Positions 2,634-16,558 of a stretch of 35,906 nt of DNA are shown here, in pieces; position 1 is the stretch's first letter; every line of letters starts with the position of its first letter. A model generated the notes under the pieces. That model had not been told where the DNA came from. It ran no database searches and saw only the letters and a list, made by a program, of their open reading frames with translations. Origin of the DNA: a virus; IMG/VR virus record IMGVR_UViG_3300032299_000754, positions 1 to 35,906 of that record. One strand, written 5' to 3'. Position numbers and translations under genes: made by a program.

Positions 2634-2663
2634 ACGCTCATCTCCTAGGGTTCACGAAACCTT

Positions 2664-2685: not shown

Positions 2686-2709
2686 GACTCTCACACCATC
2701 GCAGGGAAG

Positions 2710-2979: not shown

Positions 2980-4076
2980 GCGTCCTCCGAAAGCGGCATC
3001 ACGACAGCGAGGTGGTCTCCACAGCGGAGCACCACGGCAGACTCTCCGTCCTTCGCGTCAACGTCCACGGTCGGCTCGGCTTCGAGCGGCAGTTCCTTGA
3101 GCCAATCGACAACGTAGCCGGGATTCAACATCACGCGGCATTCGCTGCCGCTGCTCATGACAGCACAGCGGATAGTGGATTCGCCCGCCTCGCTGCTTTT
3201 GCCCTCGACTAGCAGCGTGTCGCCGCCGAAGGTGTATCGCACGCCACGGCTCGACTCGCTGGCGACGATGGCCGCTGCCCGCGTCGCGGACTCCAGATTC
3301 GTCCGCGTGATCGAGGTGGCTGCTCCCGATTCCTTCGGGATCAGTTTCCGCCACTTGGGGAACTCGCCAGCCGAGAGCCTCACGCTGATCACCGCCACGC
3401 CGATGTCGGCAACGATGTCGCTGCCCGAGGCGTAGAACTGCACCGCCGCCTCGGGGAACTTCCCCGCGACCTTGGCGATCATCTCAATCGCCCCCACCGG
3501 AACCAGCACGCGGGCCTCGTCCATCGCCTGATCGTGCTCCATCTTGCAGGCGTACATTCGCCGCCCGTCGCTCGCGACCGTCCAAGCCTCGTCGCCAGCC
3601 ACCTCGATCAGCACCGCACCGAAGGCGTACCGCCCGCCTGTCGTGTCGGCTGCACCGCACACGCTCCACGCGGCACGGGCGAACTGGTCACACGGGATAC
3701 GGACCAGCGGCCTCGACTCGCTCTCGCGAGGCCACGTCGGGAACTCAGAGGCATCGCCGACCGGGAGCCGCCATTCGCTGCGGCCAGCCTTGACAACGCA
3801 AGATGAACCCTTGACCGTCAGCGTCAGGTCAGCCGTGCCGCACTCGTTGACGATGGCCTTTAGACGCGAGTAGGGGAGGAGCAGCGGCTCGCCTTCGTAG
3901 CCAATCTGCTCGGAGACTCGCACTTCAAGGTTCGTGCCTGTGACGGTTCCGTCGCACAAGAGCACGTTGGTCAAGACGGGGTTCGGCGTCCTTGCCGGAA
4001 CCGCGTCAGAGAGGTCATTCAGAGCGGAGCGGAGAGCCGCGACGCTCAACGTCGTTCCAGCGGTTGCCGTTGCCAT
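2976..4076 (-). CDS. DNA polymerase III beta subunit-like sliding clamp
   Basis: 366 residues, matching the usual ~365-380 of bacterial beta clamps. The order of elements fits a three-domain DnaN: N-terminal L-R-S-A-L-N-D-L helix, P-V-L-T-N-V-L-L strand (33-40), V-A-S-D-G-R-R-M-Y (about 167-175, the domain-2 D-x-x-R signature), L-V-P-V-x-A (about 191-196), and a C-terminus ending in V-V-M-P-L, like the M-P-(M/L) end of DnaN. Clamps encircle DNA and tether polymerases. Phage-encoded beta-type clamps are uncommon compared with host use. The gene follows helicase and nuclease genes and belongs to replication. Start ATG has an AAAGGA site 11 bases upstream. No clamp loader or polymerase is visible in the window. 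Confidence 0.8.
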   Translation of the reverse strand: MATATAGTTLSVAALRSALNDLSDAVPARTPNPVLTNVLLCDGTVTGTNLEVRVSEQIGYEGEPLLLPYSRLKAIVNECGTADLTLTVKGSSCVVKAGRSEWRLPVGDASEFPTWPRESESRPLVRIPCDQFARAAWSVCGAADTTGGRYAFGAVLIEVAGDEAWTVASDGRRMYACKMEHDQAMDEARVLVPVGAIEMIAKVAGKFPEAAVQFYASGSDIVADIGVAVISVRLSAGEFPKWRKLIPKESGAATSITRTNLESATRAAAIVASESSRGVRYTFGGDTLLVEGKSSEAGESTIRCAVMSSGSECRVMLNPGYVVDWLKELPLEAEPTVDVDAKDGESAVVLRCGDHLAVVMPLSEDA

Positions 4077-4704: not shown

Positions 4705-5102
4705 GCTGACGCTCCAGATACTTCGGATAGGGAAACAATCTCCCCATCGGAAGCTGAACTGTCAAGTGCATTTTCCGCGAGGTATTCCTCGATCCGGTCG
4801 CGGAGCTTCTCGTTCGTGTCCCGCAGATGCTCCAGATACCGTCGCCCGTTCTTCTCGGTGTCGGCCTCAGCAAACGTCAGCCCCTTGAAGCGGCCGAACT
4901 GGAAGCGGAACTCGGCACGATTCGCGTTCGGCTTCGCTGCCTGTGGCCGAGCCACCGCAGGAACACGAGTCCGCAGCCCGCAGAACGCGCACTCCAGCAC
5001 GTCCTCGGGCTTGCCCTTGTGAGGGGTGAAGTCACCGATGCACTCCCACGCTGTCGCGTGGCAGCGGTGGCAGGGAGCGGCGTGCGGTTGAAGGTCAATC
5101 AC
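4662..5102 (-). CDS. Zinc-binding protein with ExoX-C/DUF3820-like domain
   Basis: 146 residues beginning with a GTG that overlaps the helicase stop (GTGA), which fixes the start. Residues 11-41 contain C-x-x-C (11/14) and C-x-x-C (38/41), a four-Cys zinc site. The C-terminal part, F-Q-F-G-R-F-K-G-L-T-F (67-77) with a downstream Y-L-E-H-L helix (89-93), matches the small domain found at the end of exonuclease X and in DUF3820 proteins, thought to bind DNA. No DEDD exonuclease residues are present, so it is not itself ExoX. Placed directly after the UvrD-like helicase and before VRR-NUC, it is probably a DNA-binding accessory in replication or recombination. Confidence 0.7.
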   Translation of the reverse strand: MIDLQPHAAPCHRCHATAWECIGDFTPHKGKPEDVLECAFCGLRTRVPAVARPQAAKPNANRAEFRFQFGRFKGLTFAEADTEKNGRRYLEHLRDTNEKLRDRIEEYLAENALDSSASDGEIVSLSEVSGASACHERRPSSQRLFG

Positions 5103-6742
5103 AGCACCTCCATGCAAGGCACGGGCTTGCCGTACCGATGCTCGTTGATCACGTACAGATTCCGCCGCGCCCGCGTCACGCCGACGTAGGCAATCCGGCA
5201 TTCCTCGTCATGCTGCTCGCGGTCATCCTCGCGTCCTTGCTCGACCCGCCTGCTGATCGTTGTGAGCATCGCCACGTTGTCGGCCTCCATCCCTTTAACC
5301 GAGTGGATCGTGCCGACCCGTATCTTAGAGTTCGATGCAAGTTCGCTGCCCCACTTCTCGGCGTGTCGCCGCCACTCCTCGCCTCGATCCACGAGGCCGC
5401 ACCAGCCGCCGCTACGAATCTTCTCAACGAGCGGCGGCGTGGCCCCAACTTGCTCCAACTCGTTGGGGAAGATCACGTCCCAATCGTCCACGTGTTTTGA
5501 CCAGCCAGCCTTCGATCCGCGAGCGAGCATCGGTTCTTTCGCTTTGTTGACCGACGGCAGCAGTTCTAACGCCCGCCCCCACTCCGCACCGCTGATCTGC
5601 TTGCCCTTCTCAAGAGCGTAGAGAGCGGCGAGGCCTTGGCCCCGCACCGATACGCCTTCGGGCTGCTTCACCCAGCGGGCAGGCTTTCCAGAGGAGTTCA
5701 GCGAGGCATACAGCCGCGATGCCTCATAGTTCGTGCGAGCGATAAACAGCCAGTCCTCATCCGGTTTTGCCACGTTCACCGGATATTCAACGTCAACTTC
5801 ATGAATGCGACCGTCGTGATCGGCAGGAGCCACCTTGCGGTCGAAGTATCCGCGATACATTCGCCGCAAGCATCGCTCGCCCAACTCAAGGATCGGAGCA
5901 GGGCAGCGGTAGGACTTCGGCATCATCCGTTCCTTCTCGGCGGGCCAACCAAGGAAGCACTCGGAACTGCTCCCTGCAAAGCCGAAGATGCTCTGGAACG
6001 GATCGCCCACGACGTAGCACCACTTCACCGACTCTGCTGAAACGAGCCGCTTGCACGCCGCGTCAAGCAGCGGGCTGGCATCTTGCTGTTCGTCAAAGAG
6101 CCACGCCTCCACAGGCGGCAACTCGCCTTCCGGCTCGACGCGATCCACGCCGTCTGACGCGCTGACGCGGATACCGGAGAACCGCAGCAGCAAGTCGGAG
6201 AAGTCCAGCCGGTCCTCCAGCCGCTTCGCCAACTCGTAGCGTTCGGATATCCGAACAACTGCCGCGAAGTCAGGCACGTTGTCATCCAGCCGCCGAGCTT
6301 TTCGCACCACTTCATCAAGCGGCTGGAGCGTGCTGCGGGCCAAGTCCCAGCACGTCAGGGCTGCTCCTTCGACGCCGCCGACAAACTTCTGCCGCCCCGT
6401 CTCATCGTCGATGGTTGTCGAGACTCGCACGCCGAGCGCGTTGCTGATCCATTCGGTATCCGCCGCTGAGCCGCCAAGCAGTTGCCCCGGCTGAACGTCG
6501 AGGCACCGCTTCGCGGTCGAGTGGACGGTGCGGAACCACCCCTCGCCGTCGAGCAAGCCGGGAGCGACGCCCCACGCTGCCGCTGCACGGCCAACCGCCT
6601 CGGCCCGTGCTGCCCGCGTGAACGACGCGAAGCCGAGCCGCAGCGGGTCGTTCCCAAGTTTTGGGAGGGCAGACTCCATGATGCGTAGGAGTTCGGTCGT
6701 TTTGCCGCTGCCAGCCGCTCCGATGAGTCTCGCTATCTTCAC
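5099..6742 (-). CDS. UvrD/Rep-type superfamily 1 DNA helicase
   Basis: 547 residues with the SF1A helicase series: Walker A G-A-A-G-S-G-K-T (8-15), motif Ia F-T-R-A-A-R-A-E-A (41-49), D-E-Q-Q Walker B (217-220), G-D-P-x-Q-S-I-F-G-F-x-G motif III, Y-R-C motif IV, T-I-H-S-V-K-G-M-E motif V near 480, and Y-V-G-V-T-R-A-R motif VI near 520. It is shorter than cellular UvrD (~720), mainly in the accessory domains. Start is GTG with a strong AAGGAGG site. ATP-driven 3'-5' unwinding in replication or repair is the known family activity. It is preceded by copy 1 of the duplicated non-coding element and followed, coupled, by nuclease-type genes. Confidence 0.9.
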   Translation of the reverse strand: MKIARLIGAAGSGKTTELLRIMESALPKLGNDPLRLGFASFTRAARAEAVGRAAAAWGVAPGLLDGEGWFRTVHSTAKRCLDVQPGQLLGGSAADTEWISNALGVRVSTTIDDETGRQKFVGGVEGAALTCWDLARSTLQPLDEVVRKARRLDDNVPDFAAVVRISERYELAKRLEDRLDFSDLLLRFSGIRVSASDGVDRVEPEGELPPVEAWLFDEQQDASPLLDAACKRLVSAESVKWCYVVGDPFQSIFGFAGSSSECFLGWPAEKERMMPKSYRCPAPILELGERCLRRMYRGYFDRKVAPADHDGRIHEVDVEYPVNVAKPDEDWLFIARTNYEASRLYASLNSSGKPARWVKQPEGVSVRGQGLAALYALEKGKQISGAEWGRALELLPSVNKAKEPMLARGSKAGWSKHVDDWDVIFPNELEQVGATPPLVEKIRSGGWCGLVDRGEEWRRHAEKWGSELASNSKIRVGTIHSVKGMEADNVAMLTTISRRVEQGREDDREQHDEECRIAYVGVTRARRNLYVINEHRYGKPVPCMEVL

Positions 6743-6801
6743 CAGATTGCCTCCTTGAGTCCTGCGCAGCGGGCTGTCGAGTGACCGCCCGAAAGTTTCC
6801 T

Positions 6802-6936
6802 CGTCAAAACAAGTTTTCCCGGCAGTTTTCCCGGCACGTTTTCGCCTTGTTTCGTAGTGTCAAACGCACTTTGCCGGGAAAACGAGTCGCTACAAAGTGG
6901 TTTTGCCCACAACTTTTTTCCCATATACATAGGGCG
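6802..6936 (-). repeat. Duplicated non-coding element, copy 1
   Basis: About 135 bp between the primase stop and the helicase start; it matches 16005-16141 in the same orientation. Exact shared blocks are CGTCAAAACAAGTTTT (6802-6817), TGCCGGGAAAAC (6872-6883) and a 27-base A/T- and C-containing block starting at 6895. Block-to-block spacing is 70 and 23 bases here, 71 and 23 in copy 2. Copy 1 also holds two tandem exact GTTTTCCCGGCA units (6813-6824, 6825-6836) and one inverted unit at 6872. An indel in the conserved block shifts reading frames between copies, so conservation is of DNA or RNA, not protein. Could be an origin, a regulator-binding region or a structured leader. Confidence 0.8.
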
Positions 6937-6937
6937 T

Positions 6938-8674
6938 TCATTCGGTCGGCTGCTCCTGCTGTGCAGGCGGGCTGCTTGAGGTCGTGAGCGTCGCCGCCAT
7001 TTCCTCTAGCACGGCAAACTCCCTCCTAGACCACACCACGTACGATTTGCGGGCTCCTCCGAGGTGGCGGAACTCGGCATGGCGGAAGTCCTCAGTGCCG
7101 CCCATACGGGCCAGCAGACGCCTCCTGAGGGCAAGCCGCTCCCCGGTCTCGACGCGGTGCTGCCGCTCGATGTCCTCCCACAGTTTCCCCCACGCGAACC
7201 ACAGCGTGCCGTCCTGCCGCCAAGCCGCCCGTCCGGTCGGGTCAGGAATGTCATCATCACTCGGCTGCGATGCCTGCGACAGCCGGTCATAAAGCCAGGA
7301 GGCCAGGAGCACGTATCGCAGACTAGATGCTCCCGGCCATTCTTCCCCCGCGTTGTCAAGGAGCTTCGCCTTGATCCCGCGTGCCGTCCGCTTGGTGGCC
7401 CGGTCGCCTGCCGAGACGTTGTCCCTAACCTTGTAGCCGCCATCCCATATCTGCCTCCACCGCTTCGGGTCATCATCCAACATGATGCGCCCCGTCGCCG
7501 CTAGCACCGCCGCCGCCACCTTCGGGGCGGATCGGTATTGGTCAATCGTCAGAGTAACGTTGCCCGTGTGATCTGCCGTGTGGTTCCGCCAGTGCGGAAC
7601 GTGCAGCCGGTACTCAATCGGGTCGCTGTGGATGATCGTCAACTCCCACTCTCCCGGCCCCCACTCGGGGTCGCTGTCCGAGTCGGGCAAGATCGGTGAG
7701 AACGACAGCCCAACCTCCGTGAACACCCGCTGCCAGCCTGTCGGTGCCAGCCCCGGCTGCCGAACCGAAACGGCTTGTGGCGTTGCCGCTTCCGACGCGA
7801 TGATCGCCGCTTCGGCCGAGACGCCAGCCGCCCGGTTCTTGCGAACGAACCCGATAGCCGAGCGGTAAATCGCCACGCACTCGCTGTCATCCAGCGGAGG
7901 CTTGCACTGGATGGAGTTGACCGCCCGAATCTTGAGGAGCAAGTCTTGCTGCTCGCGTTCGTGGTCAAGGTTCGGCCCAGCGCGGAAAGCCTCGCTGACC
8001 GCGAAGCGGTGCAGCTCGCTGTTCCTCCCGCCGGTCTGCACCGGGCGATGCAGCATCTCGCGGGCTGGCGACCGCGAGATGGAGCGAGCCTGCCCGCTGC
8101 CATCATCGTTGAACAGCAGATTGAGCAGCCGCTCGGGCAACGGCTGGAGTTCCACGTCATCCGGCGACAAGCCTTCGACCCACTCGTAGCGGACTCCGGT
8201 GTGGTGGGTGCTTGGCGGAATGACCGACTGAGCAGCCTTGCCGCCGTTGCCGATTCGCACCTCGATGCCGAGCACCTTCCGCACCGCGACGGCAGGCAAG
8301 TCCTCCTGCCACCGAAACAGCCGGTGAGGCCCGCGACCGGCCTTGTAGGTCGGCGTCCAGATTTCGCCGAGGTCGAGTTCGGCCCACGCCGCTTTCGCAT
8401 CGTCGCCGTCCAACTCCACGTCGATCACGCCAGACTTCGGGCCAAGCAAGATGCCGACGTTGACCGGCTGCTCTAGGTCAAACCAACTAAGAACCTCGTC
8501 CTCGTCGTTCGTCGCCGACAGGTGCCACGCCGTTCCGCCGCTTGGGTGCTTCCCCGGCGTGCCGCAGTCGTGGCCTTTCCAGCACGTGCAGACTCCCGGT
8601 GCCGGTACGCCGAACAGCGGCACAAGTTGCCAGCCGTGGCGTAGGTATGACGCCGCCATCGCTCCGTTGTTCAT
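6938..8674 (-). CDS. Prim-Pol type bifunctional primase/polymerase
   Basis: 578 residues. The N-terminal ~220 residues match the PrimPol family (PF09250 type): A-A-S-Y-L-R-H-G-W (7-15), a Cys-rich insert with G-K-H-P (41-44), the metal site V-I-D-V-E-L-D (83-89; D85, E87), G-R-G-P-H-R-L-F, and P-P-S-T-H-H-T-G before a V-R-Y-E-W strand. The middle and C-terminal part probably contains the helical primase C-terminal region, but no Walker A motif, so no fused helicase is evident. Chosen ATG has GGGAGG upstream; the frame is open further upstream but lacks a site. Role: priming, possibly limited synthesis, at phage replication forks. Flanked by a hairpin upstream and element copy 1 downstream. 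Confidence 0.85.
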   Translation of the reverse strand: MNNGAMAASYLRHGWQLVPLFGVPAPGVCTCWKGHDCGTPGKHPSGGTAWHLSATNDEDEVLSWFDLEQPVNVGILLGPKSGVIDVELDGDDAKAAWAELDLGEIWTPTYKAGRGPHRLFRWQEDLPAVAVRKVLGIEVRIGNGGKAAQSVIPPSTHHTGVRYEWVEGLSPDDVELQPLPERLLNLLFNDDGSGQARSISRSPAREMLHRPVQTGGRNSELHRFAVSEAFRAGPNLDHEREQQDLLLKIRAVNSIQCKPPLDDSECVAIYRSAIGFVRKNRAAGVSAEAAIIASEAATPQAVSVRQPGLAPTGWQRVFTEVGLSFSPILPDSDSDPEWGPGEWELTIIHSDPIEYRLHVPHWRNHTADHTGNVTLTIDQYRSAPKVAAAVLAATGRIMLDDDPKRWRQIWDGGYKVRDNVSAGDRATKRTARGIKAKLLDNAGEEWPGASSLRYVLLASWLYDRLSQASQPSDDDIPDPTGRAAWRQDGTLWFAWGKLWEDIERQHRVETGERLALRRRLLARMGGTEDFRHAEFRHLGGARKSYVVWSRREFAVLEEMAATLTTSSSPPAQQEQPTE

Positions 8675-8706
8675 CGCCCTTGTCCTCCCTGTGATGTGTA
8701 TGAGAT

Positions 8707-8738
8707 GCCCCGCGCCGCGTCTCCACGCGGCGCGGGGC
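8707..8738 (-). other. Strong intercistronic hairpin
   Basis: Perfect 13-bp G+C-only stem with a 6-base loop (GCCCCGCGCCGCG / CGCGGCGCGGGGC) between the 8760-9536 gene and the primase start. No U-tract follows on the transcribed strand. It may be an attenuator, an RNA-stability hairpin or a terminator of non-canonical type that lowers primase expression. Confidence 0.65.
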
Positions 8739-8759
8739 GAAATGACGAGTCCTCCCTGA

Positions 8760-9536
8760 CTATGCCGCATCCTGCGGCGCGTCGAACTGCGTCGCGATCC
8801 GCGTGAGCGGATCGGTGTAGAGAGCCTTGATCACCAGCCCTTCCTCGCGGCTAATCGTGCCGATGTTTTCGGGGACGATCTGCGAGTAGTCGATGCCGCT
8901 CTTGCTCGCCACCTTCTGCAAGGTGAGCGACACGATCACCCGGAAGTGAGCAACCTTAAGCCGCTTCACAAACGGACTGACCGTCGCGATGGAGCCAGCA
9001 CCGACCGAGAGCAGCACCGGCCACGCTTCACCCGGCTGGAGGATCGCCAGCGTGCGGCTCTCTTTGATCCGCCGCCCGACGCCACCCTTGCCGCTGCCCC
9101 AGCCAAAAGGCGAGCCTTCCTTGCCCATCGCCTCCCAGTTGTAGAGGCGATCACCGATCCGGAACGCGGCCAACTGCTCGGCGTCGATGTCGCCGAGCGA
9201 GTCGTTGGTTCGGATCGCCGTCTTGAGGTCATACGAAGTCAGCACCGGACGCTGCCCCTTCGTCGGCTCCTCGCTGCCCCACAACTGACCGAGCGGAGCG
9301 TAGTAGACGAGCAGGCCGGTGATGGCCTTCGACTCCACTTCCGCTCCGTCGCTGTTGACGTACTGCCACGTTTTCCCGCCGCCCGCTGGCGTCTTGATGC
9401 GGATAAGGTCGCTGACCGCGATGGTCTCGCCCGTTGCGAGATTGGCTGCCATCGCCTCCTTGAAATCGCTATCGCCGTGCAGCGCGAGGAAGCCTGCCTG
9501 TGGTTCCAGCACTGCGAGTTCTTTCGTCTTGCTCAT
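8760..9536 (-). CDS. Hypothetical replication-block protein
   Basis: 258 residues, AGGAG site before the ATG. No catalytic motif is convincing; a P-A-G-G-G-K-T-W stretch near residue 50 looks like a P-loop but lacks the right spacing and context. The protein has alternating beta-rich segments, basic patches near 155-165 and a mixed C-terminus ending acidic. Its position between a helicase partner and the primase, and its size, would suit a single-stranded DNA-binding or recombination-mediator protein, but that is inference only. The leader carries the recurring AACAATCA element (minus-strand TGATTGTT). Confidence 0.6.
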   Translation of the reverse strand: MSKTKELAVLEPQAGFLALHGDSDFKEAMAANLATGETIAVSDLIRIKTPAGGGKTWQYVNSDGAEVESKAITGLLVYYAPLGQLWGSEEPTKGQRPVLTSYDLKTAIRTNDSLGDIDAEQLAAFRIGDRLYNWEAMGKEGSPFGWGSGKGGVGRRIKESRTLAILQPGEAWPVLLSVGAGSIATVSPFVKRLKVAHFRVIVSLTLQKVASKSGIDYSQIVPENIGTISREEGLVIKALYTDPLTRIATQFDAPQDAA

Positions 9537-9555
9537 TCGACTACTCCTTCTTGAA

Positions 9556-9576
9556 GTTGGGAATCCTAAACAATCA
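9556..9576 (-). promoter_or_regulatory. Recurring leader element (copy A)
   Basis: On the transcribed strand TGATTGTTTAGG followed by six variable bases and AAC, then TTCAA. The same 26-base frame (TTGAAGTT..6..CCTAAACAATCA on the plus strand) recurs at 13012-13037, with shorter forms at 14522-14536 and 15430-15437. Here the TGA is also the stop codon of the upstream gene. All copies lie in 5' leaders of minus-strand genes. Function unknown. Confidence 0.45.
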
Positions 9577-10020
9577 ACCGGTCGTTCGACTACGCAGCCG
9601 AATCTTCACGAACTGGGAAATCAAACCATCGAACTTCGTCCCTTCGGCGGCTGCCTCAAGGCTTCCGCCGCTGTTCTTTGCACGCTCACTCAGCCACGCT
9701 TTGAGCGTGGACGTGTTCACCGTGATAGCGTCCTTCAAACCCTCGGCCGTCGCCGCCGCGATGATCTGCTCGCGGTTGGCGGCAGGCACCGAGACGTACA
9801 AGGCCTCGTCTACCCACCACGTTTTGCCAGCCACGCGGCAACCGTCGAGGCCGCTGGCCCCTAGTTGCTCCGCAGCCAGCGACTCAAGCGACTCCATCTC
9901 TTTCTCGACAGCCTTGATCTGTGCTGACAGGCTGTCACGAATCTCCTGCTTCGCCACCAGACGGGCTAGCAAATCAGACAGCCCCTCCGACGCCGAGACT
10001 TCCTGCACGTCAATGCTCAT
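9574..10020 (-). CDS. Hypothetical coiled-coil protein
   Basis: 148 residues from an ATG that overlaps the SNF2 stop (ATGA), with GGGAG upstream. Residues about 10-55 form a charged helix likely to be a coiled coil (L-A-R-L-V-A-K-Q-E-I, K-A-V-E-K-E-M-E-S-L). A central W-W-V-D-E-A-L-Y-V strand and helix-rich C-terminus follow, ending basic (V-K-I-R-L-R-S-R). The family is not recognised. Translational coupling to the SNF2-type helicase suggests a shared complex or pathway in DNA metabolism. Confidence 0.65.
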   Translation of the reverse strand: MSIDVQEVSASEGLSDLLARLVAKQEIRDSLSAQIKAVEKEMESLESLAAEQLGASGLDGCRVAGKTWWVDEALYVSVPAANREQIIAAATAEGLKDAITVNTSTLKAWLSERAKNSGGSLEAAAEGTKFDGLISQFVKIRLRSRTTG

Positions 10021-11381
10021 GCTACCGCTCCCGTTCTCGGAGAAAGTTGCTCCAGCACCACGTCGACAACATTGCGACGCTCCCGAAGTGCTGAATAGAC
10101 CTGTTCGTCTACCGTACCCTGCGACACAAGGTGGTAGTACCGAACACATCGCGTCTGTCCCGGCCTCCGCAACCGGGCCAAACTTTGTTCGTACTCGCCG
10201 AGGCTGAACCCCAACGAGTAGTAGAAGCAGTAGGCGGCTCTCGACAGGTCGATGCCCGCCCCGCCGCTTTGAATCTGCACGCCGATAATGGTGGCGTCGC
10301 CCGCTTGCCACTGTGCCAGCGTGTTCTCGTTGCCGCTCAGTTCGGCATAAGTCCGGCCCATCCGCCGTGCCATCGCACCAACTTCGTTGAGGTCGTTGCG
10401 AAACCGGCAGAACACGGCAACAGGCTCGGTCTCCAACAGGTCGGATAGCCGATCCTCAAGCGTTGCGATCTTTGACGGTGTGCCGTCGATCAGCACCGTT
10501 CCCGCCTCGTCGGTGCGGGCATAGCCGCCCGTCGCTTGTTGGAGTCGGAGGAGCTTCCCGAGCGCGTTGCTGACCGTGACCGTGCCAGCCTCGATTTCGG
10601 CAGTCATATCCCGCTCAAGGTCGCGGTAGTATTTCGCCGTCGCTCCAGTCATCGGCACGGGCAGCACTTCGTGAATCGCGTCGGGGAGGTCGAGCACATC
10701 ATCCACCTTGACCCGCCAGATGTGCGGGTCTGTCTTGGCTGCGAGTTCATCTTGGTTCAACCACTTCTTCACTTTGCCGGGGAAGCGGATGTCGCAGTCG
10801 GCGTAGCGGCGGCGGAACTTCACGAACGACTCGCCAAGCACCGCCGGGTCGAGGAAGCGAAACTGCCCGAAGAAATCAAGCGGGCTGTGAGGGATCGGTG
10901 TGCCAGTGAGGAGCAGTCGTTTCGCTTGAGGCTGCTGCCTCGCGAAGCGTGCCAGCCACCTCGATGCCATCCCGGTCGGGCTTTTGATGCGGTGCGACTC
11001 GTCCAAGATGATCGCGTCCCACTTGATTTCGGTGACGGCCTTGCTCACTTCGCCACGCCAGACGGAATCGTAGTTGATGATGCAGCACAGCCCGCGTCGG
11101 CCTCGCATCATCGCCTCCTGCCGCAGCCGCTTCGCACGCGCCTTGCTGTCGCCCGCGACGAGCAGCACCGGGTGCAGCGGGCCAGCGTCGAGTGCGAGCA
11201 GAGCGGTGATGCTCTTGCCCGTTCCCATATCTTTCGCCAGCATCGCGGCGTCTTTCTTCGCAGCCCATCGAGCGGCGTCGAGTTGCGACTGCCACGGCGT
11301 CACGCTGCCAGTTTCAAGCAACCCGATCTGTCGAATCCATGCTGGCCCGACCGCAATCGGGCAGACGATCAACACGTTCAT
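10017..11381 (-). CDS. SNF2-type superfamily 2 DNA helicase/translocase
   Basis: 454 residues from an ATG overlapping the upstream stop (ATGA). Motifs: Walker A D-M-G-T-G-K-S (51-57), L-D-E-S-H (126-130; DEAH-box-like DESH), L-L-T-G-T-P-I (157-163), motif V Q-S-G-G-A-G-I-D-L near 383-391, and motif VI Q-S-L-A-R-L-R-R-P-G-Q-T near 408, ending with the V-D-E-Q-V helix typical of SNF2 C-lobes. It is a minimal two-lobe enzyme without accessory DNA-binding domains. Family members translocate on duplex DNA; phage versions are linked to replication or recombination and anti-restriction. It forms a coupled set with the small genes either side. Confidence 0.88.
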   Translation of the reverse strand: MNVLIVCPIAVGPAWIRQIGLLETGSVTPWQSQLDAARWAAKKDAAMLAKDMGTGKSITALLALDAGPLHPVLLVAGDSKARAKRLRQEAMMRGRRGLCCIINYDSVWRGEVSKAVTEIKWDAIILDESHRIKSPTGMASRWLARFARQQPQAKRLLLTGTPIPHSPLDFFGQFRFLDPAVLGESFVKFRRRYADCDIRFPGKVKKWLNQDELAAKTDPHIWRVKVDDVLDLPDAIHEVLPVPMTGATAKYYRDLERDMTAEIEAGTVTVSNALGKLLRLQQATGGYARTDEAGTVLIDGTPSKIATLEDRLSDLLETEPVAVFCRFRNDLNEVGAMARRMGRTYAELSGNENTLAQWQAGDATIIGVQIQSGGAGIDLSRAAYCFYYSLGFSLGEYEQSLARLRRPGQTRCVRYYHLVSQGTVDEQVYSALRERRNVVDVVLEQLSPRTGAVA

Positions 11382-11713
11382 GCGTCGGCTCCTTGTTCCA
11401 AGAACTGGAAGATGCGTTGCTCGATCCTCTGCCAATCGAGTTCCAACTGGCGGTCAGCCCATTCTTTGATCCGCTCCATCCACGCGGGCGTGAGCGGCAG
11501 CGGAAGTGCCGAGCCTTTCGGCGGATAGACGCCCGTGATGGTTAGGCTCGTCATCTCGATGCACGCTGGCGACGAAGGCCAGCCGTCGCCGTTCGCAGTT
11601 CGCCAGCAGCCGGGATCGCCGGGGTCGATGGAATACTCCATCTCGTACTCAACCTCGACACAGCCAAGGCCGAGCGAGTCACTGGTGTCGTGCAGGCTTG
11701 ATGTATAGGTCAT
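11378..11713 (-). CDS. Hypothetical protein
   Basis: 111 residues; ATG with GAGGAGG upstream and ATGA overlap with the previous gene. The N-terminal half is acidic and beta-like with two Cys (G-C-V-E-V-E-Y-E-M-E, D-P-G-C-W-R-T) and the second half is a proline-containing linker followed by an amphipathic helix (W-M-E-R-I-K-E-W-A-D-R). Not recognised. Coupled to the SNF2-type helicase gene, so probably an accessory to DNA metabolism; no more can be said. Confidence 0.62.
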   Translation of the reverse strand: MTYTSSLHDTSDSLGLGCVEVEYEMEYSIDPGDPGCWRTANGDGWPSSPACIEMTSLTITGVYPPKGSALPLPLTPAWMERIKEWADRQLELDWQRIEQRIFQFLEQGADA

Positions 11714-11997
11714 CGTGCAACCTCCTCGGTCGTGAGGTCGCAGTGCAGAATCTCGTCGCGGAGCGTGTCGAGCTTCGCTTGATACTCGCCGATCTTGCGA
11801 ACGAAGAAGATCACAACGTCGGCCAGTGCCGCGCCGCGAGTTGTGTGCCATTGACCGTCGCGAGGAACAAGCAGCCCAGCAAACCTGACGTACTCGATGC
11901 CGTCAGGAAGCGTCCCGATAATCGTCCCCTCGTCAATGAGAAATGTTCCGGACTCTCCAACAATGCAAGCCCGATAGACCTTTGTCCCTGCGTTCAT
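11710..11997 (-). CDS. Hypothetical protein, first gene after terminator
   Basis: 95 residues, ATG preceded by AAAGGA. N-terminal half is beta-rich (C-I-V-G-E-S-G-T-F-L-I-D-E-G-T-I-I-G), with a hydrophobic but probably soluble middle and a C-terminal coiled-coil helix (G-E-Y-Q-A-K-L-D-T-L-R-D-E-I). No known family. It is the first gene downstream of the strong terminator at 12034-12084, so it probably has its own promoter or depends on read-through. I could not identify a convincing promoter between the terminator and its start. Confidence 0.6.
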   Translation of the reverse strand: MNAGTKVYRACIVGESGTFLIDEGTIIGTLPDGIEYVRFAGLLVPRDGQWHTTRGAALADVVIFFVRKIGEYQAKLDTLRDEILHCDLTTEEVAR

Positions 11998-12033
11998 GTT
12001 TCGCGTGTCCTTTGTGAATGGTTCCGTTCGTTG

Positions 12034-12084
12034 AAAAGAAAAACCGGGGCGGGCGGTAAACGGTTGGAAACCCGCCCGCCCCGG
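12034..12084 (-). terminator. Strong intrinsic terminator
   Basis: On the transcribed strand a perfect 13-bp stem (CCGGGGCGGGCGG / CCGCCCGCCCCGG, arms 12072-12084 and 12044-12056) with a 15-base loop is followed at once by TTTTTCTTTT. It lies 24 bases past the DUF932 stop. This is the clearest Rho-independent terminator in the window and separates the small-gene block from the SNF2/primase block. Confidence 0.9.
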
Positions 12085-12107
12085 TGAGCCACGCCTTGCG
12101 GCGTAAC

Positions 12108-12995
12108 TCAGACAGCCATCGTCAGTGCCAGACGTTCGGCCTGTGCCACACGACCGTCGTGGAGGGATCGGACAATCCGCTCCATCTCGGTCGGGCGACC
12201 GCGACGGATGCTGTCCCACTGCGAGTAACCCTGCACCGCGTTGTAAGCCTCCCATCCGCTGACCACGAAGTCGGCGTTCATCGGGCCTCGGCCCGTGACC
12301 ATCCGCTCACTGGAGAGTCGCCGGAAGATGGCCTCAGTGCGATTCTTGTGCATCGTCACGGAGCGTCCCTCATCGGACTTCGGTTCCCCGTAGATCGCCT
12401 TGAGGAACTCCACCATCCGAACCTCGCGTTGCTGCATCTGCTGCACCACCGCTGTCAGGTTCTCCCATCCGGCTTCCAGCGAGGCGAACGTGGCGATCAG
12501 TTCGTCCATCTGGAGACGGAGCCCCGACGTGTGACGGATCGACACGCTCGTCCCCTCTGCCATCCGCATGATCATCATGTTGCGGCAGGCATCGCGGAAC
12601 AGACCGAGCGAACCACGGAACGCCTGACCACCGTATCCCGCGTCGATCACGATGCGAGGGAACACGTTGTCCCTCGTTCCGAACACGGCAAGCCGCTGCT
12701 CCATCGTCGGCTGCACGGTGACGTAGTGACCGTTGTCGAAGTGACACCGCACATCGGCCACCCCACCGAACGCCGTGCCAGCGGCTTCGATCAGAGCGTT
12801 GATGTCATCCGTCGTGTGAGGAACGTACCGGTCACTGACCGATCCGTATCCCACCGCAGTTCCAGTGTCGCTGCGGAACAGCCCGTAGAACGGTGTCGCC
12901 ATGTTCTCCGGTCCACGCAGCGGGAACTTGTCCACGCTGAAAGGGAACGCCGCACGAATCCGGTCGGCCACGTTGCAAGTAATCATCTCGTTCAT
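12108..12995 (-). CDS. DUF932 (phage/plasmid-like) protein
   Basis: 295 residues matching the DUF932/TIGR03299 family by order of elements: N-terminal Y-V-P-H-T-T-D-D-I-N-A-L-I-E-A (about 56-70), V-T-V-Q-P-T-M-E-Q, V-I-D-A-G-Y-G-G, the hallmark S-I-R-H-T-S-G-L-R-L (about 153-162), and a C-terminal N-A-V-Q-G-Y-S-Q-W-D helix. Family members are common in phages and plasmids; function is unsettled, with links to replication or recombination. Two in-frame ATGs exist (13001 and 12995); 12995 has better spacing to GGGAG. It is followed by the terminator at 12034-12084 and has a leader with hairpin plus the recurring element. Confidence 0.75.
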   Translation of the reverse strand: MNEMITCNVADRIRAAFPFSVDKFPLRGPENMATPFYGLFRSDTGTAVGYGSVSDRYVPHTTDDINALIEAAGTAFGGVADVRCHFDNGHYVTVQPTMEQRLAVFGTRDNVFPRIVIDAGYGGQAFRGSLGLFRDACRNMMIMRMAEGTSVSIRHTSGLRLQMDELIATFASLEAGWENLTAVVQQMQQREVRMVEFLKAIYGEPKSDEGRSVTMHKNRTEAIFRRLSSERMVTGRGPMNADFVVSGWEAYNAVQGYSQWDSIRRGRPTEMERIVRSLHDGRVAQAERLALTMAV

Positions 12996-13011
12996 GGTCA
13001 TCGTCTCCCGT

Positions 13012-13037
13012 TTGAAGTTTCCGAACCTAAACAATCA
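13012..13037 (-). promoter_or_regulatory. Recurring leader element (copy B)
   Basis: Plus-strand TTGAAGTT, six variable bases, then CCTAAACAATCA. It matches the copy at 9551-9576 across 20 of 26 positions and sits in the DUF932 leader, directly below the 13043-13069 hairpin. It is not part of a stop codon here, which argues that the TGATTGTT motif is not only an artefact of stop-codon context. Confidence 0.45.
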
Positions 13038-13042
13038 GTCCA

Positions 13043-13069
13043 GCGGCACGGCCTACGTGGCCGTGCCGC
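13043..13069 (-). other. Hairpin upstream of DUF932 gene
   Basis: Perfect 11-bp stem with a 5-base loop (GCGGCACGGCC / GGCCGTGCCGC), starting 6 bases past the stop of the 13076-13354 gene. It is followed by TGGACTGATTGTTTAGG on the transcribed strand, which is only weakly U-rich. Possible attenuator or terminator. Confidence 0.55.
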
Positions 13070-13075
13070 ATGTCG

Positions 13076-13354
13076 TCAAGCCACCTCGCCGCGTCGGGCG
13101 TCCACCTTGCTGGCCGTGTCGAGCCAGTTGCCAGCCATGTCCTCGATCTCGCGGTCGTCCACCATGCGGGAAGTCAGCCGCGAGCCGAACTCGTCTTCAA
13201 GGAACGAGGTCATGTCCTGCACCGCCACGATCAGTTCCGCGATGTCTTCGCGGGTCGTCCCCTCGTCGAGCATCCCGGCCTCGCCGCCAGCAAGCATCTC
13301 AAGGGATTCCTGAGCTTCGCCCAGCATCTTCGTCAGTCGGTTGAACTCGTTCAT
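13076..13354 (-). CDS. Hypothetical acidic helical protein
   Basis: 92 residues, AAAGGA before the ATG. Strongly acidic and almost all helical, with two amphipathic helices (L-T-K-M-L-G-E-A-Q-E-S-L and D-I-A-E-L-I-V-A-V-Q-D-M). No Cys or enzyme motif. Such small acidic proteins in early phage blocks are sometimes inhibitors of host proteins, but nothing here shows that. Precedes the DUF932 gene and may share its transcript. Confidence 0.6.
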   Translation of the reverse strand: MNEFNRLTKMLGEAQESLEMLAGGEAGMLDEGTTREDIAELIVAVQDMTSFLEDEFGSRLTSRMVDDREIEDMAGNWLDTASKVDARRGEVA

Positions 13355-13396
13355 CGTCGTGGTTCCTTTAATGTTGGTGGTGTTGCGTGTGGTCAG

Positions 13397-13588
13397 TCAA
13401 GCAGGCTTCATCCCAAACTTCTTGATGCACTTGCGGTACTCGCACCGCCCGCCGTGCGTGTCGGTCGTGAACGACCAGCCCATCGACCGGCCGTCGCGGT
13501 CAAAGCTCTCGATTGACACGTTGCCGCTCGCGTGGACCGTGAACTTCATCGTCGATCCGTGCTTGTCGATTAGCTTAAAGGCCTTCAT
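13397..13588 (-). CDS. Hypothetical small basic protein under cassette promoter
   Basis: 63 residues from ATG 13588 with the GGAGAACGAACG leader end shared with the 15448-15789 gene. Beta-rich N-terminus (F-K-L-I-D-K-H-G-S-T-M-K-F-T-V), then S-F-D-R-D-G-R-S-M-G-W-S-F and a basic end with two Cys (R-C-E-Y-R-K-C-I-K-K-F). The family is not recognised. It is the first gene downstream of the best sigma-70-like promoter in the window (13643-13670), so it is probably expressed early and strongly. Confidence 0.62.
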   Translation of the reverse strand: MKAFKLIDKHGSTMKFTVHASGNVSIESFDRDGRSMGWSFTTDTHGGRCEYRKCIKKFGMKPA

Positions 13589-13642
13589 CGTTCGTTCTCC
13601 GTTTCGTTGTCCTCGTCGCGGTGTCCGCCGCGTCATGCCTGT

Positions 13643-13670
13643 ATTATACCCTATCGGCAGAAAACGTCAA
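13643..13670 (-). promoter_or_regulatory. Sigma-70-type promoter, cassette copy 1
   Basis: Transcribed strand reads TTGACG (13670-13665), 16 bases, then a perfect TATAAT (13648-13643). An A/T-rich tract (about 13673-13695) lies just upstream, like an UP element. A CCCTAT/ATAGGG inverted repeat brackets the -35 and spacer, a possible operator. Downstream, the leader has a CGCGG/CCGCG hairpin and a GGAGAACGAACG ribosome site. Nearly the same arrangement recurs at 15842-15868. Confidence 0.85.
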
Positions 13671-13705
13671 TAGGGAAAAGAAAAGATTTTTTTACCCCTG
13701 TTTTT

Positions 13706-13722
13706 CCGGTGTTTTTCACCGG
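13706..13722. other. Small hairpin at the end of the 13716 gene
   Basis: CCGGTG and CACCGG form a 6-bp stem around a 5-base homopolymer loop, and the stop codon of the 13716-13961 gene lies inside it. On the minus strand no U-tract follows, so I do not call it a terminator for the genes here. Confidence 0.4.
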
Positions 13723-13961
13723 ATCACCCCCAGGCCCGCGTCAGCCAGATCGAGGATCGCCCGCCCGACGGCCCGCAGCCGCCCCGGCTGGGGAGCCGGG
13801 GGGGCGTGCGGCGGCACAGTCGGCAGGCCTGCCAAGGGCATCACCGCCTGACGCTGTGCCGTGTCGATGGCTGCGAGGTGCAGTCGCGTCTCGATCAAGA
13901 GCGAGCAAGCCACCGCCATGACGGTGATCACGCACGCGGTGCGGAGTAGGTCGTGGATCAT
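13716..13961 (-). CDS. Small single-span membrane protein
   Basis: 81 residues; ATG overlaps the previous stop (ATGA). One hydrophobic segment (about residues 9-23, A-C-V-I-T-V-M-A-V-A-C-S-L-L-I) near the N-terminus, followed by a mostly soluble, Pro/Ala-rich tail (P-P-H-A-P-P-A-P-Q-P). The profile suits a signal anchor with the tail outside, as in spanins or some holin-associated proteins. No lipobox or lysis-gene neighbour is seen, so lysis is only a guess. It is the last gene before the promoter cassette at 13643. Confidence 0.6.
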   Translation of the reverse strand: MIHDLLRTACVITVMAVACSLLIETRLHLAAIDTAQRQAVMPLAGLPTVPPHAPPAPQPGRLRAVGRAILDLADAGLGVIR

Positions 13962-14236
13962 TGGTTCGCCTCACCTGCATTCCATCGCCGGATGATTCGG
14001 TATGCCCATTCAATCAAGTCTTTTGACGGCATCGCGTACTCGCCTTTGCGTGGGTTGCACTCAATCACGAAGTCCAGCAGGCACAGTTTCATTTCGCGAG
14101 TCAACTCAAGTTCTGTCATTGCTTGCGAAACAACTCTGGCATGTGCCGCTCCGTCTTCGTGCTTTGCAAAAGCATGTCCAATCCTGAGCAAGCCACTGCG
14201 AATGGCTTCGTGGTCACCGGGTGTGTGATTGCTCAT
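13958..14236 (-). CDS. Hypothetical helical protein
   Basis: 92 residues with GGAGGA upstream, separated by two bases from the preceding stop. Mostly helical: G-L-L-R-I-G-H-A-F-A-K-H, then T-R-E-M-K-L-C-L-L-D-F-V-I-E-C and a C-terminal D-L-I-E-W-A-Y-R-I-I-R-R-W helix. No recognised family. Tightly packed between two small genes, with ATGA coupling to the membrane protein that follows. Confidence 0.6.
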   Translation of the reverse strand: MSNHTPGDHEAIRSGLLRIGHAFAKHEDGAAHARVVSQAMTELELTREMKLCLLDFVIECNPRKGEYAMPSKDLIEWAYRIIRRWNAGEANQ

Positions 14237-14238
14237 CG

Positions 14239-14499
14239 TCAGTCCTCCTTCGTGAATGAGTGATCCATCGCATCGACCGCCGCTGCCACCGCGTCCTCCG
14301 CATAGAGGCAGGCGGCAGTCGAGAACTCCGAGTCGCTGCCAGCGTGATCAGCGAGCGTTGCTTCCAGATCGTCTAGAGCACCGAGCAAGTCGCAGTCCAC
14401 GCAGCCCTGATCGGCCAGCCGCAGGGCGGTAAGGACCGCCTGCGAATGCGAGTCAGGCAGCGTGGCGTAGTTGCTGTTTCGGATTGTGGGGTAGGTCAT
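14239..14499 (-). CDS. Hypothetical acidic protein
   Basis: 86 residues, very acidic and Ala-rich (D-D-L-E-A-T-L-A-D-H-A, A-E-D-A-V-A-A-A-V-D-A-M-D). Helical; three Cys (G-C-V-D-C-D and A-C-L). The family is not recognised. The ribosome site GGAGA and ATG at 14499 fit; another ATG five bases upstream is out of frame. The leader carries the short form of the recurring TGATTGTT element. Acidic DNA-mimic inhibitor is a conceivable role but unsupported. Confidence 0.58.
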   Translation of the reverse strand: MTYPTIRNSNYATLPDSHSQAVLTALRLADQGCVDCDLLGALDDLEATLADHAGSDSEFSTAACLYAEDAVAAAVDAMDHSFTKED

Positions 14500-14521
14500 C
14501 GCATCGCTCTCCGTTGGTTAG

Positions 14522-14536
14522 GTTTCCGAACAATCA
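14522..14536 (-). promoter_or_regulatory. Recurring leader element (copy C, short)
   Basis: Plus-strand GTTTCCGAACAATCA, the 13012-13037 element without its middle CCTAA. The TGA of the upstream HExxH gene forms part of it on the transcribed strand. Located 23 bases above the next start. Confidence 0.4.
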
Positions 14537-15175
14537 GCCCTGCCGTCGAGCGGCAACGGCTCCGTAGTAGTTCACCTTGCGGCGGTACTTGCCGACCTTC
14601 GTCTTTGCCATCTTGAGCCGCCGCTCCCACGCCGCGAGCAGTTCAGCAGCCCGTGCCGCCCGGCGATCCACAATGCTCGGCTTCGGCTTCGCTGGTCGCT
14701 GCGGCTTCTCGCGGAGCCAATCGGCCAGCAGCGTCTCGCGGGCCTCGCGGAATGCGAGCAACGCTCGCCAATCAACGGCCCGCACGCGCGGCTCGGAGTT
14801 GAGCCGCTTCCGCTCGGTGTAGTCGCGAGCGATTGCATAGCACCGGGCGTGCTCCAGTTCGTGGGCGAGGATCGCCACGAACAACTCCCACTCGTCGTGA
14901 GCATCGCGACCAGCCAACTTCTCCTCCGAGTTGTGCGCCATGCTGGTCGGGTACTCGTCGGCCGCACGGTCGCGGCAGAGCAGCACTTGAACGAGCCGCT
15001 GGCCGTGGCGATACCAGCCACCCCAGCCGAGACCGCTCTGGCTCTTGCGGTAGCCGACCTCGACGGTCAGCGTCCGCAGCACCTTCGCCTCTATGCCGAT
15101 CTGCTTCGCCGCCCAGCGGGCCGCTCGCCGCACGACGTGCGACGGGTAGCTGGGGTGATTCGTGGTGATCTTCAT
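14534..15175 (-). CDS. SprT-like HExxH metallopeptidase-type protein
   Basis: 213 residues; ATG overlaps the upstream stop (ATGA). A-H-E-L-E-H-A-R (104-111) is an HExxH zinc motif, with a possible third ligand in S-E-P-R (E128) about 20 residues later, as in gluzincin/SprT-like folds. A hydrophobic helix (E-L-F-V-A-I-L) leads into the motif. The C-terminal third is highly basic and helical (R-R-A-A-R-A-A-E-L-L, K-T-K-V-G-K-Y-R-R-K), suggesting nucleic-acid binding. Likely a cytoplasmic protease or metal-binding DNA-associated factor. The motif can occur by chance, but the helix-HExxH-helix context is good. Confidence 0.65.
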   Translation of the reverse strand: MKITTNHPSYPSHVVRRAARWAAKQIGIEAKVLRTLTVEVGYRKSQSGLGWGGWYRHGQRLVQVLLCRDRAADEYPTSMAHNSEEKLAGRDAHDEWELFVAILAHELEHARCYAIARDYTERKRLNSEPRVRAVDWRALLAFREARETLLADWLREKPQRPAKPKPSIVDRRAARAAELLAAWERRLKMAKTKVGKYRRKVNYYGAVAARRQG

Positions 15176-15366
15176 GACTGCACCGCCTTCCGCAAGCAAT
15201 CGGCAAGGTACTCGGCCACATTGCTGACGCCTCCATGCCGAGCGACAAACGCCTCCAGCGTCTCATCGTCGCGAAGATCGGTCACGGCGGAACGGCACCT
15301 GATAACGGTGCGTCCCCTGCTTTTCACGGTGATGATTAGCCCGCAGTGTTCAAAAGTCGCGTTCAT
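15172..15366 (-). CDS. Hypothetical small protein
   Basis: 64 residues; ATG with ACGGAGG upstream. N-terminal beta hairpin (F-E-H-C-G-L-I-I-T-V-K-S-R-G-R-T-V-I-R) then a helical C-terminus (E-T-L-E-A-F-V-A-R-H-G and V-A-E-Y-L-A-D-C-L-R-K). No family recognised. Coupled to the HExxH gene that follows. Confidence 0.58.
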   Translation of the reverse strand: MNATFEHCGLIITVKSRGRTVIRCRSAVTDLRDDETLEAFVARHGGVSNVAEYLADCLRKAVQS

Positions 15367-15400
15367 CGTCCCGTCCTCCGTTGAAGTCCCGTCAGTCCCG

Positions 15401-15429
15401 CCCGCGCTGCGGAACGCCCGCAGCACGGG
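15401..15429 (-). other. Leader hairpin above the 15172 gene
   Basis: Inverted repeat CCCGCGCTGCGG / CCGCAGCACGGG with 11 of 12 pairs and a 5-base loop. It sits between the recurring AACAATC element (15430-15437) and TTGAAGT, as if a hairpin had been inserted into that element. Possible attenuator; no U-tract. Confidence 0.5.
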
Positions 15430-15447
15430 TATCCGAACAATCGTTAG

Positions 15448-15789
15448 TCAGTTCGCCCAACCGCTCCCCGTATCAGTCGGCTCGGCCCAGCGAACAACCG
15501 ACATACGGTTCGAGTTGCGAAAGCCAGACGCCGACAGGCACCACCGGCCGCCTCGCTGGTAGGCAACGTAGCAACCGATCAGATGCTCCTTGCTGCCGGT
15601 CGGAAAGCGGACAACGACAGCGTGAATCGGGCGATCCGTGGCAGGCAGCCAGTTGTGCGAAGGCGACAACCGTTGCAAGGCCACGGTCTTCGTGACGCTG
15701 CCAACCGTGATCTCGGCCTCGGTCTGCTCCACCGTGTAGGTGCGGGAGGGGTCGTCGTAAAACTGCTTGGTGACCTGGGTGATCGTCAT
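15448..15789 (-). CDS. Hypothetical protein under cassette promoter copy 2
   Basis: 113 residues from ATG 15789 behind GGAGAACGAACG. Beta-rich: T-Y-T-V-E-Q-T-E-A-E-I-T-V-G-S-V, P-I-H-A-V-V-V-R-F-P-T, H-L-I-G-C-Y-V-A-Y-Q-R-G-G-R-W, then S-A-S-G-F-R-N-S-N-R-M-S. No known domain. It is the first gene after the promoter at 15842-15868, equivalent to the position of 13397-13588 in the other cassette. The two proteins are not clearly homologous, so the regulatory cassette, not the gene, was duplicated or shared. Confidence 0.62.
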   Translation of the reverse strand: MTITQVTKQFYDDPSRTYTVEQTEAEITVGSVTKTVALQRLSPSHNWLPATDRPIHAVVVRFPTGSKEHLIGCYVAYQRGGRWCLSASGFRNSNRMSVVRWAEPTDTGSGWAN

Positions 15790-15841
15790 CGTTCGTTCTC
15801 CGTTGTTGGCGTCTCGCGGTGTCCGCCGCGTTGACCCCTGC

Positions 15842-15868
15842 ATTTTAACCTATCGGCAGAAAAAGCAA
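15842..15868 (-). promoter_or_regulatory. Sigma-70-type promoter, cassette copy 2
   Basis: Transcribed strand reads TTGCTT (15868-15863), 15 bases, then TAAAAT (15847-15842). An A/T-rich tract precedes the -35, and a CCTAT/ATAGG inverted repeat brackets it, as in copy 1. Spacer sequence TTCTGCCGATAGG and the downstream GCGGCGGACACCGCG hairpin are identical to copy 1. Spacing is one base shorter and both hexamers are weaker, so this promoter should be less active. Confidence 0.75.
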
Positions 15869-16004
15869 TAGGAGGTTAGAGAAAAATCTTTTTAGGCTGT
15901 TTTTGCGGGTGAAACGAGTGGTTTCCCTTTCTTTATTTAGCCCTCTCCCCACAGGTGGTGGACCCAAAAAGTCCACGTTCACCCGTCCTGCCAAAAAGAA
16001 ATCG
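15869..16004. other. Intergenic region between HTH gene and promoter copy 2
   Basis: Together with 16005-16146 this is the longest gene-free stretch in the window (15790-16146). This part holds an A/T-rich tract next to the promoter and, at 15958-15976, a GTGGAC/GTCCAC inverted repeat with a 7-base loop. I see no coding frame with a ribosome site on either strand. Confidence 0.6.
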
Positions 16005-16141
16005 CGTCAAAACAAGTTTTCGCGGCGGTTTACTCGGGTCGATAACCCTTTTCACCGCAAGCAGTTAGGCATCACTGCCGGGAAAACTTCCTCCCGTGAA
16101 GTGGTTTTGCCCACAACTTTTTTCCCCATATACAAGGGGCG
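16005..16141 (-). repeat. Duplicated non-coding element, copy 2
   Basis: Direct-orientation partner of 6802-6936, 9.2 kb away. It keeps CGTCAAAACAAGTTTT (16005-16020), TGCCGGGAAAAC (16076-16087) and the 27-base block beginning at 16099, with spacing 71 and 23. The region between the first two blocks is diverged but alignable, and the tandem GTTTTCCCGGCA pair of copy 1 is degenerate here. It ends six bases before the stop of the HTH gene, as copy 1 ends two bases before the primase stop, so both sit at gene 3' ends. Confidence 0.8.
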
Positions 16142-16146
16142 GGAGT

Positions 16147-16389
16147 TCAGCCGGTCTTTCGCCGCCGCTTAGCTTTCGCCGCTGCAATCCAGTCGGGGTT
16201 GCCGCTGGTCGCCTTGAGGTGCGGCTTGATGAGCGGCAACTCATGCACCGCAATCGCCACCAGCCGGTGACCGTCGGCAAGGATGCCGAGGCCGTCACGC
16301 TTTGCCACTCTGCGGATGGCTGTGTTGGAGCACTTGAGCCGCGTGGCTGCGGTCTCAATCGTCAGGTAGATCACGTCATCATCCTTCAT
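16147..16389 (-). CDS. Excisionase/MerR-like helix-turn-helix protein
   Basis: 80 residues from ATG 16389 with GAGGAA upstream. I-Y-L-T-I-E-T-A-A-T-R-L-K-C-S-N-T-A-I-R-R is a winged-HTH-like start as in excisionases and MerR regulators. A wing-like stretch (G-I-L-A-D-G-H-R-L-V) and a basic tail (A-A-A-K-A-K-R-R-R-K) follow. Probably a DNA-binding regulator. It lies between the end of the late operon and the early block and next to element copy 2, so it is a candidate for controlling the duplicated promoters or binding the duplicated element. No integrase is seen, so excisionase is not implied. Confidence 0.68.
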   Translation of the reverse strand: MKDDDVIYLTIETAATRLKCSNTAIRRVAKRDGLGILADGHRLVAIAVHELPLIKPHLKATSGNPDWIAAAKAKRRRKTG

Positions 16390-16405
16390 CTGGCCGTTCC
16401 TCCGT

Positions 16406-16434
16406 ATCGTAGTTCCGCGTCCATAGGGAAGCAA
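16406..16434 (-). promoter_or_regulatory. Possible promoter of the HTH gene
   Basis: TTGCTT (16434-16429), 17 bases, then TACGAT (16411-16406) on the transcribed strand. The -35 is the same hexamer as cassette copy 2; the -10 matches consensus at four of six. It would give a leader of roughly 10 bases before the GAGGAA site, directly after the late-operon hairpin. Confidence 0.4.
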
Positions 16435-16499
16435 GTGGCAAGCGTCTGACCAACCAAAAACCGCAGCCGTGCAACGTGCTGCCTAAAATCAACTGAACA

Positions 16500-16551: not shown

Positions 16552-16558
16552 GTCCGGT

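Follow-up and report, generated by a model that had tools for sequence, protein, structure and literature searches.

A viral record of 35,906 bp (IMG/VR), called the window hereafter, carries one ~135-base non-coding hairpin element twice, and I lean towards reading the two copies as a pair of phage replication origins. Both copies lie on the minus strand, as do the long genes examined, and are ~9 kb apart (Table 1). They occupy fixed places in the genomes, the hairpin of copy 1 covaries, and the outer blocks of the two copies evolve in concert, with inner hairpins that are copy-specific. Function and binding are what I infer from these comparisons throughout, and the protein folds are predicted ones.

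Three exact blocks were common to both copies and came in the same order: CGTCAAAACAAGTTTTC (17 nt; 6802-6818 and 16005-16021), TGCCGGGAAAAC (12 nt; 6872-6883 and 16076-16087), and AAGTGGTTTTGCCCACAACTTTTTTCCC (28 nt; 6895-6922 and 16099-16126), with a start-to-start spacing of 70/23 in copy 1 and 71/23 in copy 2. The first-pass annotation had described a repeated element with this very spacing and with both copies intergenic, all of which was confirmed together with its 12-nt block, while the blocks it gave as 16 and 27 bases turned out to be 17 and 28 nt long. The 28 nt of the longest exact repeat compare with 14-19 nt in first-order Markov controls modelled on the window (n=20), and searching copy 1 against the window's own record with blastn matched exactly two places. 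Copy 1 ends a few nucleotides from the stop of the primase-polymerase (Prim-Pol) gene (6938), and 7 nt separate the end of copy 2 from the stop codon of a small HTH gene (16147). The GTTTTCCCGGCA units that had been called iteron-like are real, with two direct and one inverted unit in copy 1, and one exact and two degenerate units in copy 2. The exact 28-nt block found no match in the viral contigs searched, and the block itself is therefore genome-specific.

On the sense strand, the element reads as a CCC-TATATA-GGG box, an AT-rich run, a mid block, arm A, a 5-nt bulge, the inner hairpin, and arms B, C, and D, where arm A is GTTTTCCCGGCA, arm B is TGCCGGGAAAAC, C is a direct copy, and D is an inverted degenerate copy. 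The A-B hairpin takes up ~60 nt of the 135-nt element. Downstream of copy 2, relatives have a CGTGGACTTTTTG-like motif and then another TATATA box.

Table 1. Positions of the element copies, their parts, and neighbouring genes in the window.
Feature	Positions	Strand	Basis
DnaN-like sliding clamp, downstream in the replication block	2976..4076	-	
UvrD-like SF1 helicase; immediately 3' of copy 1 in every relative that has the region	5099..6742	-	
Element copy 1 (inner hairpin of type 1), flanked by Prim-Pol and UvrD-like helicase	6799..6934	-	
Arm D of copy 1, TTGTTTTGACGAGG, degenerate inverted copy	6799..6812	-	
Arm C of copy 1, second direct copy of TGCCGGGAAAAC	6813..6824	-	
Arm B of copy 1, TGCCGGGAAAAC, pairs with arm A	6825..6836	-	
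Inner hairpin of copy 1, with 5-nt bulge AAGTG, stem CGTTT../..AAACG, and a loop in either orientation among relatives	6837..6871	-	
Arm A of copy 1, sense GTTTTCCCGGCA	6872..6883	-	
5' block of copy 1, made up of box 1, AT-rich run, and mid block; evolves concertedly with copy 2	6884..6934	-	
Box 1 of copy 1, sense CCC-TATGTATAT-GGG	6920..6934	-	alignment
Prim-Pol (AEP primase-polymerase), predicted C-terminal winged helix, proposed initiator; start codon guessed	6938..8674	-	
Box 2, GGGCTAAATAAAGAAAGGG, counterpart of relatives' GGCCCATATATAAAGGG	15925..15943	-	
GTGGACTTTTTGGGTCCAC, part of CGTGGACTTTTTG-like motif found after copy 2 in relatives	15958..15976	-	
Element copy 2 (inner hairpin of type 2), immediately 3' of HTH gene	16002..16139	-	
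Arms C (GCCGCGAAAAC) and D (TTGTTTTGACGCGA) of copy 2	16002..16027	-	
Arm B of copy 2, degenerate, ACCCGAGTAAAC	16028..16039	-	
Inner dyad of copy 2 (relatives: TAAC..TTGCG..GGTTT type), sequence unrelated to that of copy 1	16040..16075	-	
Arm A of copy 2	16076..16087	-	
5' block of copy 2, holds the 28-nt exact block common with copy 1	16088..16139	-	
Box 1 of copy 2, CCCCTTGTATATGGGG	16124..16139	-	
Small HTH gene (low-confidence model of MerR/Xis-like fold), adjoining copy 2 in 20/20 two-copy genomes	16147..16434	-	

Other leader- and promoter-like sequences were seen elsewhere in the window, all on the minus strand or ahead of minus-strand genes. A GGGGTCAACGCGGCGGACACCGC leader precedes an early gene at 15816-15838 (-), and several relatives have this leader after TTGAC..TATAAT-like promoters that lie downstream of copy 2. 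The only sigma-70-like promoter match within 1-18500 was TTGACG-16-TATAAT (11/12) at 13643-13670 (-). Just ahead of two minus-strand gene starts lies a 33-nt repeat, 76% identical between 9544-9576 and 13005-13037, which looks like a shared 5' leader.

A search with the UvrD-like helicase returned 38 viral loci and two contigs in Planctomycetota MAGs, one of these from Phycisphaerales. The element was found directly 5' of the helicase gene in 37/37 viral contigs that had the helicase and upstream DNA, and likewise in both MAG contigs (L119, L120); in the relatives it is present, spaced, and non-coding, contrary to the outcome that the first-pass annotation had named as refuting it. The upstream ORF was Prim-Pol wherever it had been called correctly, and the Prim-Pol stop directly preceded the element in nearly all cases, as placed by automatic ORF calling that miscalled or truncated the gene at a few loci (for example L010, L018, L024, and L120).

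When covariance model R1 was run over whole records, 20 contigs, the window among them, had exactly two full-length copies, on the same strand and 9-14 kb apart, and the others had a single copy. The second copy abutted the stop of the small HTH gene in every two-copy contig, and the copy retained in single-copy records was the one at the Prim-Pol/helicase site. Because many records are fragments, little can be read into a short contig with one copy, and the informative cases are long single-copy records of 50-70 kb (G017, G018, G022, and G034). A copy-2-specific model (R2) revealed no convincing missed second copy in the single-copy genomes. Five of these genomes carried a copy-2-like inner hairpin, assigned by eye, at the Prim-Pol site, most clearly in G017, where the score of the copy-2 model exceeded that of R1. 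Scanning beyond this phage group with the B-C arm pattern found no true copies; six further contigs that it returned were chance matches unrecognised by R1. Judged by protein sequence identity, the group is unlike cultured phages, whose nearest helicases were <28% identical and whose Prim-Pol matches reached about 32% or less. The host is probably a planctomycete bacterium, the sole hint being L119 and L120, which bear element and helicase and were binned in Planctomycetota and Phycisphaerales MAGs.

The protein encoded next to copy 1 was recognised as Prim-Pol by PF09250 (E 1.8e-22), and the best PDB match to its model in Foldseek was the Sulfolobus islandicus primase-polymerase (3m1m, E 2.6e-5), followed by NrS-1 and then pRN1 ORF904. 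Over residues ~491-561, the AF2 model has a beta-helix-helix-beta-beta-helix order (block pLDDT mostly 78-91) predicted to be a winged helix, with weak matches to the ColE2 Rep DNA-binding domain and to an oriT-binding protein. Pfam (E<=0.05) recognised Prim-Pol alone and no SF3 helicase domain in this protein, and profile searches with Prim-Pol and the HTH protein against PDB sequences returned nothing useful. The HTH protein had been put forward as the binder of the element; this is unlikely and was rejected, because the gene persists in relatives lacking copy 2 (G027, G029, G039, G041, and G042) and because its sequence classes, by inspection, do not track the genome-specific part of the element. 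One relative, G020, is probably complete, since it has a direct terminal repeat. Among its scanned proteins (a subset of ORFs), terminase, portal, head, tail, ParB-like, and QueE-like proteins were found, and no integrase, repressor, or RNA polymerase was recognised. This genome also has two Prim-Pol proteins in one early block (L111:1318-1923 and L111:8491-10275). Close to its terminase genes, a QueE-like radical SAM protein is encoded, as is a ParB/methyltransferase-like protein (L112:5173-6039 and L112:2515-3333).

The copy 1 hairpin showed compensatory changes in 12 of 22 pairs, a level reached by none of 500 shuffles, and shifting the pairing partner lowered pairing from 80.5% to at most 53%. 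The dyad of copy 2 is conserved, but covariation in the stems of that copy did not rise above shuffles. Folded as single-stranded DNA, copy 1 of the window reached -15.3 kcal/mol (z -3.4).

The two copies were then compared across 16 non-redundant two-copy genomes. Identity of the 5' block was 0.68 between the two copies in one genome vs 0.51 between genomes, and blocks C and D likewise matched better within than between genomes (permutation p<=0.0001 for the 5' block, C, and D). The inner hairpins (~36 nt) were on average 27% identical between the copies of a genome and 54-60% identical within each copy class. The concerted evolution of the 5' block and C/D suggests one trans-acting reader for both copies: the inner hairpins appear to belong to their place, and the outer blocks look as if they are read by a common factor. 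Divergence of the 5' block tracked that of Prim-Pol beyond that of UvrD (partial r 0.45, partial Mantel test on Prim-Pol domains), a confounded correlation which could reflect plain linkage.

The loop of copy 1 reads CGTAAAAACAAG in some genomes and its exact 12-nt reverse complement CTTGTTTTTACG in others, and the arms are retained in either case. Labelled by eye and aided by loop A/T content, loop orientation underwent at least four changes that are forced by well-supported branches of the helicase tree. Exact reverse complements and repeated flips suggest that the palindrome functions independently of the loop strand, and that no particular loop sequence is needed on one strand. Small inversions at hairpins have been reported for chloroplast genomes.

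The first-pass annotation had left three readings side by side, a replication origin, a regulon operator, and homology used for recombination, and the origin is the best supported of these because of the invariant place 3' of Prim-Pol, the covarying hairpin, the repeated arms, and the AT-rich box, from which I infer the function. Copy 1 would be the primary origin, and copy 2, where the late and early gene blocks meet, a differentiated second one. In such a scheme, the phage Prim-Pol or a partner would recognise the box 1 / C-D blocks, which both copies possess, the A-B palindrome would be opened or extruded beside the AT-rich box, and Prim-Pol would synthesise primers on the exposed strand; the product of the neighbouring UvrD-like helicase gene would extend the bubble, and the phage DnaN-like clamp and the host polymerase would take over. 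A further and doubtful extension is that the inner hairpin is extruded and processed during replication and its loop flipped by strand exchange or template switching, the copies being specialised origins (one for early and one for late replication, for instance) with a single initiator in common, and the site preference of that initiator driving their concerted evolution. Cumulative GC skew, which had been proposed as a check, was uninformative: it ran monotonically across whole relatives, in which nearly all genes lie on one strand, with no turning point at either copy. Copy 1 held one of the least stable 40-bp stretches per genome (top 0.00-1.5% in the 7 genomes tested), but AT-rich sequence is common between genes, a point against the origin reading. 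Also counting against it are the lack of covariation beyond shuffles in copy 2, the absence of a recognised SF3 helicase domain from Prim-Pol, and the suitable placement of the element as a 5' leader or operator of the downstream genes.

Placement of this kind would suit regulatory DNA, with the copies as two operator or promoter-proximal binding regions, one per early gene group, recognised by a phage regulator. Early genes of the same strand follow both copies downstream, half-sites are repeated, the concerted outer blocks imply a shared reader, and copy 2 is followed by the second TATATA box and, in several of the genomes, by a TTGAC-N-TATAAT-like promoter. However, a sigma-70-like promoter was found in neither copy, with promoter-like sequences lying further downstream, single-copy genomes retain the Prim-Pol-adjacent copy, operators do not usually have a long covarying hairpin with a bulge of 5 nt on one side, and the sampled G020 proteins included no recognisable repressor or integrase, all of which makes regulatory DNA an unlikely explanation.

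Somewhat more doubtful is a structured RNA leader, in which the element would be transcribed and its two hairpins would work in cis, in the way that HK022 putL/putR act on RNA polymerase within two early transcripts. Two same-strand copies ahead of two gene groups, hairpin A-B with C-D close behind, and the covariation would all fit, as would a slight excess of sense-strand wobble pairs in the arms (40 vs 17, reached by 2 of 60 shuffles). Excess folding stability was nevertheless equal on both strands (z -2.02 vs -2.00; 41 sequences, Wilcoxon p 0.87), and a sense-strand preference in MFE, apparent in raw counts, was gone once set against shuffles. The occurrence of the loop in both orientations leaves no conserved RNA loop sequence, no Rfam family came near its gathering score with copy 1, and there was no excess of intrinsic terminators downstream. 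Selection had earlier been placed on DNA or RNA; loop inversion tips this question towards DNA, while the small wobble excess leaves room for RNA. Recombination between the copies, or a mobile-element remnant, is very improbable, since the direct repeats do flank a 9 kb block but keep the same two syntenic places in 20 divergent genomes, have inner parts that are unrelated despite matching flanks, so that long homology is not kept, and gave no copies beyond this phage group in the pattern scan.

Origins of Prim-Pol phages are hardly known. Here, ~40 related phages, apparently infecting planctomycetes, have a covarying Prim-Pol stem-loop in a fixed place, and half of them have a second, differentiated copy, which provides a compact and testable origin candidate and a natural data set on the co-evolution of an initiator with two sites.

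Among known systems, HK022 has two ~70-nt two-hairpin put elements, one per early operon (PMC9378689), which resemble the present pair, but here there is no clear strand asymmetry of structure and the loop is inverted among relatives. The ssiA and ssiB sites of RSF1010 are likewise two hairpin sites for an AEP-type primase (RepB'), with iterons nearby (PMC4434180, PMC4234260), a recognition that is proposed for the phage element; they are ~40 nt long and one per strand, in contrast to ~135 nt on the same strand and kilobases apart. Closer in layout is SPP1, whose two origins lie ~13 kb apart and have direct repeats and an AT-rich unwinding element (PMC6316719). Like oriL and oriR in its ~44 kb genome, the elements described here are paired and similar (9-14 kb apart), with repeats and an AT-rich region, and one is linked to replication genes and the other lies in the late region. 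Unlike in SPP1, gp38, gp39, and the DnaB-type gp40 were not recognised among the proteins scanned (a subset of ORFs), and a covarying hairpin stands where accounts of the SPP1 origins speak of direct repeats. Replication of pRN1 depends on a ~100-nt stem-loop located 3' of its Prim-Pol gene, phage BIP-1 has a similar stem-loop 3' of its Prim-Pol gene, and the pRN1 authors proposed the Prim-Pol-adjacent 3' stem-loop from few cases (PMC4234260). The present element shares with both a long stem-loop directly 3' of the Prim-Pol gene whose structure is kept while its sequence varies, and with pRN1 a Prim-Pol with a predicted C-terminal winged helix. It differs from pRN1 in that no SF3 helicase domain like that of ORF904 was recognised in Prim-Pol and a separate UvrD-type helicase gene follows, in that half of the contigs carry two differentiated copies per genome, and in its additional repeated arms and TATATA box. 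Because SF3 is absent and the function is deduced, the element is not filed as a member of either system; by analogy, it rather seems to combine the layouts of the pRN1 stem-loop and the SPP1 origin pair, and may well work like these.
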